From NCBI GenBank assembly GCA_020060235.1, contig JAGVAO010000230.1:1-62325 (forward strand): 62,325 bases of DNA. The letters run 5' to 3'. The stretch is from Anaerolineales bacterium (GTDB lineage Bacteria; Chloroflexota; Anaerolineae; Anaerolineales; Villigracilaceae). Positions 2,323 to 13,671 of the stretch are shown here, one piece after another. Each line of letters begins with the position of its first letter. Position 1 is the stretch's first letter. A program made the translations under genes and the position numbers. The notes under the pieces are model-generated. The model did no database searches and had not been told where the DNA came from. It worked only from the letters and a program-made list of their open reading frames with translations.

Positions 2323-3225
2323 TTAGACCGGCAGGCGGATGGTGAATACAGCCCCCCTCCCCTGGGCCGGGTCGCTGCGCAGGAATATTTCTCCACCATG
2401 AAGTTGGACGATGCGCCGCGCCAGTGCCAGCCCAAGACCGCTGCCTTCCGTTTCGCGGGCATTTTCTCCTCGATAGAGGTCATCGAAAATCCGTTGTTGT
2501 TCCTGGGATGGGATACCGGCACCGCCATCGGCTACTTCGATGAACAAGGCACGTCCATCCTCGCGGACACGGACTTCAACCGCGTCGACGGAATCGCTGT
2601 ATTTGAGGGCGTTGTCAAGCAGGTTGTAAACCGCCAGGCCAAGCATGTCGCGGTCGCCGGTCACTGTCGGGAGGGCTGGCACTCTGGATATCAACAGGTT
2701 AATGCTGCGCCCCTGGTAAACCGGGAGACCGTTTGCCGCGCCAACCATCTCATCTACCAGTTCGCCGATATTGATAGGGCGGTGTTCGAGCATTTGCGTA
2801 TCCAGTTCAGACAGTTTGCGCAAGTCGCGCAGGATGCGCCCCAGGCGGGTGGCGGCCTGACTGGCGTTATCCACTGCGGCCAGGGTGTCGGCCGTGCTTC
2901 GGGCTTCGCGCAGGTTGGTGAGCGCGGCCTGCAAGCCTGTCAGTGGGTTTTTCAACTCGTGGTCGAGTCGTTGCAGGAATTGACGATGCGATTCATCCCG
3001 TTCACGTGTGATTTTGTCAATCAACTGCCCTTTGCCCCAATCGAAAGCGATGGCCAGGAGCTGAATCAACACTGCCAGGGCAAACAGGATGGCAAAAATG
3101 CTGGCGCCAATACCCACGCGAAAGACCATGACTGGCTCATCCTGCCAAAAAACAGGGATAAGATAGAGTGCGAGGGTGCCAATTGCCAGAAAAACCAGAG
3201 CGAGTATGGTAAAAAATTGTTTCAC
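2323..3225 (-). CDS. Sensor histidine kinase, two-TM
   Basis: 300 residues. Two transmembrane helices (about 4-24 and 37-62) enclose only a very short extracytoplasmic loop. A HisKA domain follows with phospho-acceptor His89 in DHELKNPLTG, then a HATPase_c domain with N-box LLDNALKYS, G1 VADGGAGIP and G2 GSGLGLALARRI. All kinase motifs are intact. With almost no periplasmic sensor, it may sense membrane state or a partner protein. The start overlaps the stop of the upstream response regulator by four bases, so the two are translationally coupled and almost certainly cognate. Confidence 0.92.
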   Translation of the reverse strand: MKQFFTILALVFLAIGTLALYLIPVFWQDEPVMVFRVGIGASIFAILFALAVLIQLLAIAFDWGKGQLIDKITRERDESHRQFLQRLDHELKNPLTGLQAALTNLREARSTADTLAAVDNASQAATRLGRILRDLRKLSELDTQMLEHRPINIGELVDEMVGAANGLPVYQGRSINLLISRVPALPTVTGDRDMLGLAVYNLLDNALKYSDSVDAVEVRVREDGRALFIEVADGGAGIPSQEQQRIFDDLYRGENARETEGSGLGLALARRIVQLHGGEIFLRSDPAQGRGAVFTIRLPV

Positions 3226-3938
3226 GGCAGCATCCTGACCGGGGCAATGAAGCAGTAACCTTCCCCCGCCTGTGTTTCGATAAATTTTGGGTTAGCCGGG
3301 TCATCGCCGAGTGCTTTGCGCAGCTCGAACATGCGGGTGTCAACCGTGCGGGTACCTGCCGGGTATTCCCAGCCCCAGACTAGCTGCAGAAGCCGCTCAC
3401 GGCTGATGACTTCATCTGGGTGGGTCATCAGGTATTCGAGCACGGCAAAAGATTTTGGACTGAGATCGAGCAGTTTTTCATGGAGTGTGGCGCGGCGTGT
3501 GCGGCGGTCAAGAATCAGGTCGTGAGCAGAAATCCGCCAGGCGGTGGCCAAGGAGGCTTGCCCGCTTTGCGAGCGGCGCAGTACAGCGCGGACACGCGCC
3601 AGCAACTCGTGCGACTCGAAAGGCTTGTTCAGGTAATCATCCGCGCCTTCTTCCAGCGCCAAGGCACGCTCAATGGCATCGCCGACCTGGGTGAGCAGGA
3701 TGGTCGGCGTTTGCAAACCGGCGCGGCGCAGGCGACGTAACACTTCGCGCCCATCCATACGTGGCATGAGCACATCGAGCACAACCAGGTCTGGGCGCAG
3801 TGTCTGGGCTTTTTCGAGCGCATCCGCGCCGTTGGCGGCTGTCAGGATGTGGAAACCGGCGCGCTCAAAAAACGGAACCAGGCTGTTGGTGATGGTTGGG
3901 TCGTCATCCGCAAGAAGAAGTTTCGGCCTGTCATTCAT
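3222..3938 (-). CDS. OmpR/PhoB-type response regulator
   Basis: 238 residues. The receiver domain (about 6-120) has the acidic pocket DDD at 11-13, phospho-acceptor Asp55 in VVLDVLMP, Thr83 and Lys105 in NKPF. The C-terminal winged helix (about 135-235) ends in the typical TVDTRMFELRKALGDDP and ETQAGEGYCF stretches. It is a transcription regulator paired with the kinase that overlaps its 3' end. A TATAAT box lies 7 bases before the ATG with no ribosome binding site between, so its mRNA may be leaderless. Confidence 0.93.
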   Translation of the reverse strand: MNDRPKLLLADDDPTITNSLVPFFERAGFHILTAANGADALEKAQTLRPDLVVLDVLMPRMDGREVLRRLRRAGLQTPTILLTQVGDAIERALALEEGADDYLNKPFESHELLARVRAVLRRSQSGQASLATAWRISAHDLILDRRTRRATLHEKLLDLSPKSFAVLEYLMTHPDEVISRERLLQLVWGWEYPAGTRTVDTRMFELRKALGDDPANPKFIETQAGEGYCFIAPVRMLP

Positions 3939-4114: not shown

Positions 4115-5155
4115 TTAGATTGGCAAAACCGAATATACCTTAACCGGAATGGTCTTGCCCTTGAAAAGTTCTTCCCCCAGGGGTTCGATTTTAATTGAAT
4201 CGTCCAGTTCGCGGCGGGTGGCTTCGTCGATGATGATGCTGCGCTGGACGACTTTCGTGTGCGCTTCCAGACGGGTGCTCAGGTTGACCGGGTCGCCCAC
4301 GCACAGGTAGGTGGCGCGGGTTTGCGTCCCGGCGTAGCCAGCCACCACGCGCCCGGTGGCGATGCCAAATCCGACTTCGAGTTGCAGCCTGCCTTTTTCA
4401 GCCTGTTCGCGGTTGTAGGCATCCAGTTTCTTGTGGATTTCGATTGCGCTCCTGACCGCCCTCTGCGCGTGGTCGGGATAGAAGACCGGCGCGCCGAAGA
4501 ACGACATCAGGCCGTCGCCCTGCATCTGGTTGGCGTTGCCGCCATGCGACTGGATGGTGTCAATCACAAGCAGGTAGTAGTCGTTAATCATGGCAATCAC
4601 GTCTGCCGGGTCGTTGGCTTCGGTGATGGTGGTGTAATTGCGGATGTCACAAAACACGGACGAAATGACGGTATGTTTGCCGCCCAGCGTGAAACCTTCG
4701 CGTATCAACTGGTCGGCCACATCTTTATCGGCAAAGGTGCGAATCAGGCGGCGCTGCTCGTCGCGCAGGCGTTTCTTTTCCAGGCAGGCATTGACCCGCG
4801 CCCGCAGCAGGATTGGGTTGACCGGCTTGTTCAGGTAATCTTCAGCCCCCAGTTCGATGCACCTGACCACGCTCTCCAGTTCATCGAGCGAGGTGGTCAT
4901 AATGATTGGGATGTTGCGCAGGTCGGGGTTTTTCAGGCAGGTTTCGAGTACCTGGTAGCCGTTCATCTCAGGCATTTCGATATCGAGCAGCATCAGGTCG
5001 AAACCGCCGGTGCCCAGTTTTTCGAGCGCTTCGCGTCCGTTTTCGGCGGTGTCCAGTTCGTGGCCGAGTCTCTCCACCTCGCGCGACAGCAACATGCGGT
5101 TGACTTTGTTGTCATCCACAATCAGCAGGCGGTGGGATGTTTGGGCGGGATTCAT
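4115..5155 (-). CDS. Response regulator fused to a class III adenylate/guanylate cyclase domain
   Basis: 346 residues. An N-terminal receiver (about 9-125) has Asp14/Asp15, phospho-acceptor Asp58 in LMLLDIEMP and Lys110. A short linker helix leads to a class III cyclase catalytic domain (about 163-340). Both metal-binding Asp residues are present (Asp170 in FCDIRNYTT, Asp214 in QGDGLM), as are the transition-state Asn291 and Arg295 in VNLSTRLE. The purine-selecting positions are unusual: Gln210 where adenylate cyclases have Lys, and Leu284 where they have Asp/Thr. The start overlaps the HPt stop by four bases. It is the likely output of the HPt phosphorelay; whether the product is cAMP, cGMP or something else cannot be told from sequence. 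Confidence 0.9.
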   Translation of the reverse strand: MNPAQTSHRLLIVDDNKVNRMLLSREVERLGHELDTAENGREALEKLGTGGFDLMLLDIEMPEMNGYQVLETCLKNPDLRNIPIIMTTSLDELESVVRCIELGAEDYLNKPVNPILLRARVNACLEKKRLRDEQRRLIRTFADKDVADQLIREGFTLGGKHTVISSVFCDIRNYTTITEANDPADVIAMINDYYLLVIDTIQSHGGNANQMQGDGLMSFFGAPVFYPDHAQRAVRSAIEIHKKLDAYNREQAEKGRLQLEVGFGIATGRVVAGYAGTQTRATYLCVGDPVNLSTRLEAHTKVVQRSIIIDEATRRELDDSIKIEPLGEELFKGKTIPVKVYSVLPI

Positions 5156-5487
5156 ACGTGCAGGCCTTTGAGCCTTTCAGCGGCAGCGGCGTAGGATTCT
5201 TTCAACGCCTCCAGCCGGGTTCCGATTTCGAGATTGCCCTCGCGCCCCATCATTTCCAGTTCCCTTGCCAGCGCGGCCAGGTCGCTTGCGCCGAAGGTGG
5301 CGGCGTTCGATTTGAGCGAGTGCGCGTTGCGCCGGAACGACTCGACATCCCCGCTGGCGAGCGCGGATTCGATGCCCGCCAGCATCCCGGGCGATTCGTC
5401 CAGGAAGGCATCTATCAGGTCGTTGATAAAATCTTCGCCCGATATTTCCTTGAGTTGGTTAAAAACGCTCAGGTCGATGGGGGACAT
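5152..5487 (-). CDS. HPt (histidine phosphotransfer) protein
   Basis: 111 residues, a single all-alpha HPt domain with the phospho-acceptor His in AHSLKSNAATFGA. I chose the ATG at 5487 because AAGGA lies six bases before it; the in-frame ATG at 5493 sits almost on top of that site. The protein would shuttle phosphate between the receivers of the hybrid kinase upstream and the receiver of the cyclase protein, whose start it overlaps by four bases. Having kinase, HPt and output side by side is strong context for a dedicated phosphorelay. Confidence 0.9.
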   Translation of the reverse strand: MSPIDLSVFNQLKEISGEDFINDLIDAFLDESPGMLAGIESALASGDVESFRRNAHSLKSNAATFGASDLAALARELEMMGREGNLEIGTRLEALKESYAAAAERLKGLHV

Positions 5488-5516
5488 AGGCATTCCTTTT
5501 TACCATTCTCTACTCT

Positions 5517-8123
5517 CTACCTGTTCTCTACCCTGACATTTACCTTCGTAATCGCTTCGACCAGTTCCTCGATGCGAATCGGCTTGCTGACGTAATCGTC
5601 CATGCCTGCCTGGATGCATATCTCGCGGTCGCCTTGCATGGCATTGGCGGTCATGGCGATGATGTGCGGCTGGTGGATATTTTCCAGTTTGCGGATGTTT
5701 CGGGTGGCGTCCAGGCCGTCCATTTCCGGCATTTGCACATCCATGAGGATAAGGTCATAAGACTGCCGCTCAAGCGATTCCAGCACTTCGACGCCGTTGG
5801 CGGCGACATCGCTGCGGTATCCCATTCGTTCGAGGATGCGCAGGGCCAGTTTCTGGTTGACTGCGTTGTCTTCTGCCAGCAATATTTTCATTGGCTGGCG
5901 TTCTGCCATGTGCGGGTCGAAAAGCGAATCGGCTTGCAGGCTTTGTTTATAGGCCGAGTCTTTTACCGCAAAAGTTTCGACAATCACGTTATACAGACTG
6001 GATTGTTTGACAGGTTTGGTCAGGAAAGCCGAGAAAAGGCCGCTATCTTCCGACTCGCGCCAACCCAGCGAAGTCAACATGATGATGGGGAGCGATTGGT
6101 CAAGTTTTCGAATTTCGGTTGCCAGTTGCACCCCGTCCATTTCGGGCATGTGCATATCGAGGATGGCGGCATCGAATCTTTCCCCGTTTTTGAGGGCCTT
6201 CAGCGCGTCGAGCGGGTTTGCAAAGACGGTTGGGATTAATTCCCAGGTTTGAACCTGCAAACTGACAACCCGGCGATTGGTTTCGTTATCGTCCACCACC
6301 AGCACACGCTTGCCTTTGAGTTGCGGGACAGGCAGCGCAGGCGCGGGCTTGGGCAGCGCGGCGGTCTGGGCGAGGATTGTAAAATGAAATGTCGAGCCGA
6401 CCCCTTCGGTGCTTTCGACCCACATCTCGCCGCCCATCAATTCGCTGAGCCGCTTGCTGATGGCGAGTCCCAGCCCCGTGCCGCCATATTTGCGCGTGGT
6501 GGAAGAATCGACCTGCGAGAAAGATTGGAAGAGGCGATTCATGCGGTCGGTCGGGATGCCGATGCCTGTATCGCGCACCGAGATGTGCAGGCGTTGCCCC
6601 TGTTTTTGGGCATTTTTATCCACTTCGACCTGGAGAACGATTTCGCCCTGTTTTGTGAACTTGACGGCGTTCCCCAACAAATTAACGATAATCTGGCGCA
6701 GGCGGGTGACATCGCCCAGGATGGCTTCCGGCACATCCGGTTCGATGACGCAGCCAAGTTCAAGTCCTTTTTGCGAGGCGTTCAATGCCAGCAAGTCAAT
6801 GGCCGATTCCATGCATTCGCGCAAATCGAAAGGCTGTACTTCCAGCTCCAATTTGTCGGCTTCGATTTTCGAGAAATCCAGGATGTCGTTGATGATGGTC
6901 AAAAGCGCGTCGCCACTGTTGCGGATGGTCTCGGCATATTCGCGCTGCTCATTGGTTAGTTTTGTATCCAGAATCAGTCCTGCCATGCCGATGATTCCGT
7001 TCATCGGTGTGCGGATTTCGTGGCTCATGCTGGCGAGGAAGTTGCTCTTGGCGCGGCTGGCGGCTTCGGCGCTGATTCTGGCCTGGTGCAATTCGGTGAT
7101 ATTTCGCAAAACCACCAGTTTGCCGCGCGCGCGTTTCTTTTCGTCGAACAAGGGCGAGATGCTCAGGTCAAAATATTGTTCTTCGTCTTTACGCATCAAG
7201 CAGATTTCGGTATGCGTTTCATCCGCGCCGGAGCAATAGGCGAGCAGTTCGGGCATTTCTTGGAACGCTTCGAAAATGGGACGGCCCATAAAGGATGCGC
7301 GGGTGCGGTTGAATATTTTTTCGAGGGCCGGGTTCACATCCACAAGACGGTCTTGCATATCGAGCACCAGCACGCCGTCGCTCATGTTTTCGATAATGGC
7401 GTCGCGGGCAATTGGGGTAAGGTCGAGCGCGCGGTAGCGGAAGAAGGCAAAGAAGAAGGCAATCCCCATGAACACAAAACCAAAGGGCGTCAGGTCAATC
7501 GGCGAGATTGGGTTTAGCCCCGTTGCGTACATGATGCTGGTTATGACCGGCGCAATTGCGCCAAGCACAAGCGTCACGGCCTGGGCGCGGTACAGGTTTT
7601 GGCGTCTTAGCGCGGACAGCAAAAGCACAACGCCGACGATGATAACAATGTAACTGTAAACCAGGTACGCCCACCAGGCTGGCCCCAAATCAACTTCCAT
7701 CAGGGTCATAGAGCCAAGACTGGACAGCCGCGGGTTGCCGCGTATTAACTGGTGCCAGGTATCTGTCCACGCAAGGATAACGATTGCCACGGGCATGATG
7801 AGCAGCAGGCCAATGTTGCGGCGCGTCAGGTATTTGTCATAGCCTGCATATTGCAGCGCGAACACCATCCAGGCCAGGGGCGCGCCCGCAATCCCGAAAT
7901 AACGGATGTTCGACCAGAAAATATAAAGGCTGACCGATTCGCTTTTCAACCCCAGGGAAATGGCGTAAGACAAAGACCATTCAAATGCGCTCAGCATTAA
8001 GAATGTGAATGCCAGCGCGCCAACCGCGCCGCGCCTCCGCCAGGCCGCATAACTGAGGAGCAGGGAAACGCCTGCCGCGGCGAACATCAAGAATGAATAT
8101 AAATTAAGCGCCCAAGTGTTCAT
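5517..8123 (-). CDS. Hybrid sensor histidine kinase: 7TM-type sensor, PAS, HisKA, HATPase, two receivers
   Basis: 868 residues. Seven or so hydrophobic helices fill residues 1-230, as in the 7TM histidine-kinase sensor region. A PAS domain follows (about 240-350), then HisKA with His368 in SMSHEIRTPMNGI and HATPase_c with LLGNAVKFT and GGTGLGLAISKRL. Two receivers follow: VLVVDDNETN with AILDMHMPEMDG, and ILLAEDNAVN with ILMDVQMPEMDG. The start at 8123 is an ATG with AGGAG about 11 bases upstream; an upstream TTG at 8153 would add ten non-hydrophobic residues. The gene lies 29 bases upstream of the HPt gene and is the likely first gene of a kinase-HPt-cyclase operon. Confidence 0.93.
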   Translation of the reverse strand: MNTWALNLYSFLMFAAAGVSLLLSYAAWRRRGAVGALAFTFLMLSAFEWSLSYAISLGLKSESVSLYIFWSNIRYFGIAGAPLAWMVFALQYAGYDKYLTRRNIGLLLIMPVAIVILAWTDTWHQLIRGNPRLSSLGSMTLMEVDLGPAWWAYLVYSYIVIIVGVVLLLSALRRQNLYRAQAVTLVLGAIAPVITSIMYATGLNPISPIDLTPFGFVFMGIAFFFAFFRYRALDLTPIARDAIIENMSDGVLVLDMQDRLVDVNPALEKIFNRTRASFMGRPIFEAFQEMPELLAYCSGADETHTEICLMRKDEEQYFDLSISPLFDEKKRARGKLVVLRNITELHQARISAEAASRAKSNFLASMSHEIRTPMNGIIGMAGLILDTKLTNEQREYAETIRNSGDALLTIINDILDFSKIEADKLELEVQPFDLRECMESAIDLLALNASQKGLELGCVIEPDVPEAILGDVTRLRQIIVNLLGNAVKFTKQGEIVLQVEVDKNAQKQGQRLHISVRDTGIGIPTDRMNRLFQSFSQVDSSTTRKYGGTGLGLAISKRLSELMGGEMWVESTEGVGSTFHFTILAQTAALPKPAPALPVPQLKGKRVLVVDDNETNRRVVSLQVQTWELIPTVFANPLDALKALKNGERFDAAILDMHMPEMDGVQLATEIRKLDQSLPIIMLTSLGWRESEDSGLFSAFLTKPVKQSSLYNVIVETFAVKDSAYKQSLQADSLFDPHMAERQPMKILLAEDNAVNQKLALRILERMGYRSDVAANGVEVLESLERQSYDLILMDVQMPEMDGLDATRNIRKLENIHQPHIIAMTANAMQGDREICIQAGMDDYVSKPIRIEELVEAITKVNVRVENR

Positions 8124-8195
8124 TTCACCTGTACTCCTGACCCTAATTGTCAACTATGTCGCAAGGCGATATTTGTAGTCAAAATTATCCGCTTC

Positions 8196-12570: not shown

Positions 12571-13671
12571 TCATTTTCTCCTGTCCGCCGCGCGGTTTTC
12601 TTCCAACCGGCGCTGGACAATCTTGCCAATCGTTTCTTCGGTAATGGGCGATTGCTTAAGCAAGTTGAGAAAGGCGTCGCGCGGCAAGACCAGCACTTCG
12701 ACCGGGCCGTCGCCCGAAGCGCGCACGCTGGCCAGCGATTTACCGCCGCGCAGCAATTCGATTTCGCCAAAGAACTGTCCCGCGCCCAGGCGCGAAACGG
12801 TGGTGTCGTTGCGCTCTTTTCCGGTGAGCACAATTTCGGCAATGCCCGATTCGACGATGAAAAACTCATCCACTGTTTCTTCGCGCTTCAGGATGGTCCT
12901 GCCCGCCTCGATTCGCCTGCGCTGGGCGGTTTTTGTCACGGCCAGCATCTGGCGATGGTTGAGCAGCGGCAGGGCGCGGGCAACCGCCTCGTTAACCAGT
13001 TCACCGTCCGAAATGATGATGGTGCGGTTGGTGCGCTGGGTCAGCGACGGGTCGTGTGTCACCATCACGATGGTTTTGCCCTGGTCGGCCAGCGACTGGA
13101 ACAGGTCGATGATGACCTGCGCCGAGCGTGAATCAAGGTTGCCGGTCGGTTCGTCAGCCACCAGCAGGGGCGGGTCGGTGGCCAGAGCGCGGGCAATGGC
13201 GGCGGCCTGCTGCTGGCCGGTCGAAACGGCAACCGGCAGTTTGTTGGCCTGCGCCTCCAGCCCGACCAGTTTGAGCAATTCCATCGCCCGTTGGGGGCGT
13301 TCTTCGAAGTCGTACAGGTAGGCGTAATCCATCGGCAGCATGACATTTTCCAGCAGGCTAAGCATGGGCAGCAGTTGGAAGAATTGGAAAACAATGCCCA
13401 TATTCCTGCCGCGCCACAGCGAGCGTTGCGATTCGTTCATGCGTTCGTATAAATCGGTGGCATTAACAACCACCTGCCCGCCGGTGGGGTGGTCGATGCC
13501 GGTCATCATGTTTAGCAGGGTGCTTTTGCCGCTGCCCGACTTGCCAACAATTGCCACGAACTCGCCCTGGTAGAGCGTCAGGTCGATGCCTTTCAACACA
13601 GTAAATTCACCGGCGGCGTTTTTGAAGGTCTTGACGACCCGGCGAAGTTCAATCATCGGGGCCGCGCTCAT
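12571..13671 (-). CDS. ABC transporter ATPase fused to a cyclic-nucleotide-binding domain
   Basis: 366 residues. The MacB/LolD-type ATPase domain (about 1-228) has Walker [11 protein letters not shown]-loop [10 protein letters not shown], Walker [13 protein letters not shown] and the H-loop VTHD. Its signature reads VSTGQQQ: Thr151 replaces the second-last Gly of LSGGQ. Residues 232-345 form a cNMP-binding fold with [12 protein letters not shown], but the phosphate-binding Arg expected nine residues after Glu303 is Ser312. The fusion is unusual for this transporter class and suggests ligand-gated export. The start overlaps the stop of the second ATPase by four bases. Partnership with that ATPase as a heterodimer is inferred. 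Confidence 0.9.

Follow-up and report, generated by a model that had tools for sequence, protein, structure and literature searches.

The base that a class III nucleotidyl cyclase selects is commonly deduced from two residues: Lys with Asp or Thr in adenylyl cyclases, and Glu with, usually, Cys, Ser, or a small residue in guanylyl cyclases. Mycobacterium tuberculosis Rv0386, with the pair Gln/Asn, makes cAMP. In guanylyl cyclases the second position can be C, S, T, H, A, or G, with the pair E/G in Cya2 (PMC4215837). The Xanthomonas guanylyl cyclase XC_0250 has Ala150 at this position and makes cGMP without the usual Asn/Arg (PMC3770947), and in RhGC with GTP bound this residue points off the base, forms no bond with it, and may act by shape (PMC7384201). 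In CaAC bound to an ATP analogue, I499, which stands two residues ahead of the metal Asp, contributes to the lining of the base pocket (PMC5967339). The CTP cyclase EaPycC (metal D146) and the UTP cyclase AnPycC (metal D106) need for their activity the base-recognition residues Q144 and K104, respectively (PMC11224242). The window analyzed here, a stretch of 62,325 nucleotides from an Anaerolineales bacterium, encodes a receiver-cyclase response regulator (RR-cyclase) with Gln210 and Leu284 at the two base-selecting positions. No characterized Gln/Leu enzyme was found in the literature. Below, cyclases are designated by these two residues (Q/L, Q/T, and so on).

The receiver-cyclase and its operon

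As listed in Table 1, the protein consists of a receiver, a linker, and a cyclase domain. Pfam matched Response_reg PF00072 at residues 11-121 (95.3 bits) and Guanylate_cyc PF00211 at residues 162-335 (65.1 bits, cut-off 21.9). The acidic pair, phospho-Asp, and switch Lys of a response regulator are represented by D15, D58, and K110, which are nearly invariant. An AlphaFold model built with 19 aligned family members had a mean pLDDT of 85 and a pTM of only 0.56, so its domain arrangement is uninformative. The cyclase half of the model aligned with CyaB 3r5g (Z 28.0, rmsd 1.6 Å, 187 residues), CyaC 1wc1 (Z 27.6), and Cya2 2w01 (Z 26.6), with rmsd values of 1.6-1.8 over ~187 residues for the three structures. 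The PF00211 match and this fold (Z 26-28), together with D170 and D214 as the two metal Asp and N291 and R295 as the Asn/Arg, mark the domain as a class III cyclase.

Table 1. Features of the receiver-cyclase gene and of the genes directly upstream
Feature	Position	Strand	Remarks
Receiver + class III cyclase response regulator	4115..5155	-	346 aa, ATG start; ORF/translation
Receiver (residues 11-121), coiled/helical linker (114-153), cyclase (158-346)	within ORF 4115..5155	-	
Phospho-acceptor Asp58 of receiver	4982..4984	-	LLDIEMP motif; column nearly invariant
Metal-binding Asp170	4646..4648	-	Invariant column
Metal-binding Asp214	4514..4516	-	Invariant column
Transition-state residues Asn291 to Arg295	4271..4285	-	
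Gln210, Lys/Glu base-selecting position	4526..4528	-	Codon CAG; trait of whole RR-cyclase family
Leu284, Asp/Thr/Cys base-selecting position	4304..4306	-	Codon CTG; Leu or Ile across clade
Gln212, metal Asp minus 2, base-lining position	4520..4522	-	Invariant in Q/L clade
HPt phosphotransfer protein	5152..5493	-	PF01627, 58.8 bits; phospho-His in RNAHSLKSN
Hybrid sensor kinase	5517..8153	-	7TM, PAS, HisKA, HATPase, two receivers; Pfam

Alignment to solved cyclases and relatives placed Q210 in the Lys/Glu column and L284 in the Asp/Thr/Cys column. The monomer model, which cannot display the dimer pocket of the window cyclase, puts Leu284 on strand 281-286 and both Gln210 and Gln212 on strand 207-212, which precedes the metal Asp214. 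A preliminary description of this locus had named the two metal Asp and the Asn/Arg, and both translation and alignment confirmed them; its numbering and codons for Gln210 and Leu284 were also exact. Its view that catalysis is plausible is supported by the retention of all catalytic residues in a gene under purifying selection.

The HPt and hybrid kinase (HK) genes lie directly upstream of the cyclase ORF in the same direction, overlapping or nearly so. The order HK-HPt-RR-cyclase was found in the window and in almost every Q/T relative examined; such operons come mostly from Anaerolineae, with Burkholderiaceae and other bins also represented. From this recurrence we strongly infer a phosphorelay from HK through HPt to the RR-cyclase. 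The membrane hybrid kinase would pass phosphate to its own receivers, then to HPt, and then to Asp58, in a four-step relay of which the cyclase gene would be the output end. Phosphorylated Asp58 would act through the helical linker to alter the packing of a homodimeric class III cyclase with two composite active sites, in which Asp170 and Asp214 would hold the metals and Asn291 and Arg295 would serve the transition state. The enzyme is probably active as a cyclase. Just downstream of the cyclase, positions 2323-3938 (-) hold a separate pair of a winged-helix response regulator and a histidine kinase.

The Q/L clade and its chimeric member

Residue tallies covered the distinct cyclase domains among the matches listed, a sample biased to relatives and drawn mostly from MAGs. 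The RR-cyclase family was represented among these matches by 60 distinct members: 50 Q/T, 1 Q/S, 1 H/T, 1 L/T, 4 Q/L, and 3 Q/I. Gln occupied position 210 in all but two of these 60 listed relatives, and position 284 was Thr or Ser in 53/60 and Leu or Ile in the other 7. Outside the family, the listed cyclase domains were mostly K/T (26) and K/D (7). The Q/L and Q/I domains, from the window, L009, and genomes G033, G005, G028, G529, and G537, formed a single clade of seven members with 100/100 support (the Q/L clade). From this distribution, Gln210 is an old trait, ancestral to the whole RR-cyclase family, and Leu/Ile284 is derived inside the seven-member clade. The preliminary description was correct that the enzyme has neither adenylate nor guanylate base-selecting residues, but it overstated the singularity of the pair, since Gln210 is common to dozens of RR-cyclases.

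Four genomes of the clade also hold a Q/T-family paralogue, which in G028 is L/T. L009 (1-714, +) was the only clade member detected outside family f1; 396 genomes of the class and 400 of the phylum, sampled evenly and not exhaustively, yielded no further one. The Bacteroidetes label of this 94% identical homologue rests on a 3.2-kb contig, which may be a misbinned Anaerolineae contig. The Q/S member of the family (L155:1474-3090, -) has Ile in place of the transition-state Asn (GDTVIVAARLE), and L119:2468-3556 (-), from a genome that has a Q/L copy too, combines Leu at the Lys position with Thr284 and, at Asp minus 2, Gln.

Further positions near the active site differed between the clade and the rest of the family. 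Gln212 was present in 7/7 Q/L(I) domains, whereas the 53 other family members had V (32), I (14), E (4), L (2), or Q (1); position 293 was Ser or Cys in 7/7 and Ala in 53/53 of the others; and Pro289 was found in 6/7. The combined state Q210, Q212, and L/I284 characterized 7/7 clade members, and all seven retained the metal and transition-state residues. By arithmetic on published numbering, position 212 corresponds to CaAC I499. Since Gln212 is invariant in all seven Leu/Ile284 members, the base pocket appears to have been remodelled as a set, with Thr -> Leu/Ile at 284 and Val/Ile -> Gln at 212 as the proposed changes on top of the older Lys -> Gln at 210. Base hydrogen bonding may thus have shifted from 284 to Gln210 and Gln212, which neighbour each other on the strand that leads to the metal Asp. 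Many more clade-specific changes were scattered across the cyclase domain, and some of the co-variation is ordinary divergence on a long branch. In the homologue survey that the preliminary description had proposed for co-variation at both base-selecting positions, 284 varied with 212, whereas 210 stayed Gln.

Comparison of the window with L009 over 236 shared codons (DNA identity, 91%) gave a dN of 0.033, a dS of 0.313, and a ratio of 0.11. This ratio of about 0.11 argues against decay of the cyclase gene. The altered pocket is more than chance: both residue states are conserved among relatives, and the region is under purifying selection.

The two halves of the window protein have different affinities. 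Its receiver was 76-77% identical to Q/T receivers (L010 and L162) but 43-49% identical to the receivers of other Q/L members, while its cyclase shared 66-74% identity with the other Q/L members (93% with L009) and ~50% with Q/T domains. Constraining the window receiver to nest with the Q/L receivers cost 93 log-likelihood units, and forcing the window cyclase together with that of L010 cost 134; both constraints, which place the window where its other domain puts it, were strongly rejected. The nesting groupings were picked with the trees and the first tests already known, and the p-values are descriptive. Two looser AU tests, with the window receiver at the base of the Q/L receivers (p 0.35) and with the window cyclase outside the Q/L set (p 0.063), gave no rejection and leave the window on the long branch that separates the clades. 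The protein is a chimera, with a receiver that belongs, like the upstream kinase-HPt, to the common Q/T operon and a cyclase that belongs to the Q/L clade; the break lies in the conserved linker at about residues 120-150. L009, which begins at residue 110 with Q/T-like sequence and runs into a Q/L cyclase, has the same transition in another assembly and supports the junction independently. An artefact of sequencing or assembly, either at Leu284 or in the junction, was ruled out, since L009 has both the same Leu284 and the same junction.

Elsewhere in the clade the gene neighbourhoods differ. In L121, L122, and L123 the Q/L cyclase lies after a GAF-rich hybrid kinase, a lone receiver intervening in two of the three, and before an HD-domain protein; that of L169 adjoins a GAF-rich hybrid kinase in another gene order, and the neighbours examined for L165 include neither this kinase, a lone receiver, nor an HD protein. 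In the window a Q/L cyclase has become recombined with the receiver of the common Q/T operon, and the same phosphorelay would now drive another catalytic domain. The HD-domain proteins directly after the Q/L cyclase (L121:7814-8422, L122:8191-8889, and L123:8308-8901, all +) could be hydrolases for its product, and the window's own genome had no match to them. As a product clue they were set aside: PADLOC and NCBIfam gave nothing useful, and plasmids gave two weak matches only.

Candidate products

Neither the adenylyl nor the guanylyl residue pair is present in the window protein, and its sequence does not fix the product, in line with the preliminary description; an ordinary one such as cAMP is the likeliest. 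The window enzyme is probably an active, phosphorelay-switched cyclase that makes a purine cyclic nucleotide, with cAMP the first candidate and cGMP the second. In our judgement, which is not a computed value, cAMP has slightly less than an even chance of being the product, and cGMP or a purine mixture is possible but on the unlikely side. The published purine cyclases with a noncanonical second residue show that two odd residues alone imply no new product. The combination of Gln212 with Leu284 was absent from the purine cyclases compared in the literature. The window genome has 15 other cyclase domains, several of them canonical K/T or K/D; cAMP could come from those, and the window enzyme could be specialized. 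In the same window, 12571-13671 (-) encodes an ABC transporter ATPase with a C-terminal cyclic nucleotide-binding domain (PF00027, 12652-12918), next to an FtsX-like permease; the transporter may sense cyclic nucleotides.

A dedicated guanylyl cyclase, in which Gln210 would replace Glu at the N1/N2 edge of guanine and Leu284 would only fill the space by O6, as RhGC Cys566 seems to do, is rather unlikely. Cya2 2w01 is the closest solved sequence (96.5 bits; 33% identity in the structure alignment), and guanylyl cyclases tolerate many different second residues, Ala and Gly included, with no need for a bond to the base. However, the described guanylyl cyclases compared, where the first residue is canonical, have Glu and never Gln; the adenylyl cyclases CyaB and CyaC fit the fold as well as Cya2 does; and the closest paralogues carry Thr, the class IIIb adenylyl residue.

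We consider it improbable that the enzyme yields cCMP or cUMP as a cyclic-pyrimidine product, or that it is promiscuous, with a role in phosphorelay signalling and not in phage defence. An equally improbable variant would have base choice made by two glutamines (210 and 212) and a hydrophobic 284 for pyrimidine or multi-base use in Anaerolineae signalling. By arithmetic on published numbering, Gln212 (Asp minus 2) corresponds to EaPycC Q144 and AnPycC K104, and a bulky Leu/Ile284 would fit a smaller base; yet Asp minus 4 is Arg in EaPycC and Gln in the window, and Glu, also polar, is common at Asp minus 2 in canonical K-type cyclases (7/35 among the matches listed). Set against EaPycC F100/R142/Q144 by numbering only, F168 and Q212 match and Gln210 falls at the Arg site, with F168 near-universal in class III cyclases. 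PADLOC PycC models matched the domain (best, 62.6 bits), as they would any class III cyclase, and PF00211 scored slightly better (65.1 bits). The PycTM effector (PF18967) was absent from six clade genomes (G000 and five others), while the query matched two control genomes. The earlier suggestion that a nonstandard cyclic nucleotide is possible is slightly strengthened by Gln212 but draws no proof from the odd residues alone.

A dead or nearly dead cyclase serving as a protein-protein signalling module is very improbable: changes at substrate residues often lower activity instead of switching it (PMC4215837), and the relative L155 is without Asn291, but metal and transition-state residues are intact in 7/7 clade members, and the window gene is under purifying selection. 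A pseudogene was likewise not favoured, given the catalytic residues kept and the dN/dS of 0.11.

Comparison with described cyclases and significance

Should the product prove to be cAMP or cGMP, neither canonical base-selecting residue would be needed for it; should it be a pyrimidine, a cyclic-pyrimidine messenger would exist outside phage defence, in signalling wider than Pycsar. Q/T to Q/L forms a natural series within one family and operon type, with a third position changing alongside, and in the window protein a domain exchange that arose naturally has brought the altered catalytic domain under the control of the same phosphorelay. Which positions set the product becomes testable with otherwise matching sister enzymes.

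Among described enzymes, EaPycC and AnPycC of Pycsar share the class III fold with the window cyclase, and EaPycC also has Gln at Asp minus 2 by published numbering; the window differs in having phosphorelay input in place of a phage-defence pair, no PycTM found, and no Arg at Asp minus 4. Cya2, the top sequence match among solved structures, resembles it in its noncanonical second residue, which is small in Cya2, but uses Glu/Gly and an extra Tyr for guanine where the window has Gln/Leu and Thr294. The class IIIb cyclases (CyaC, CyaB, and OaPAC/bPAC) share the fold, the two metal Asp, and the Asn/Arg, and many have an N-terminal regulatory domain; CyaC and CyaB are the best structure matches, but class IIIb enzymes carry Lys/Thr, whereas the window has Gln/Leu with Gln at Asp minus 2. 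The uncharacterized Q/T RR-cyclase family agrees with the window in Gln210, in the receiver (at 76-77% identity), in HPt and hybrid kinase, and in gene order, and it differs in carrying Thr284 and Val/Ile212 in a cyclase ~50% identical to the Leu284/Gln212 domain of the window.
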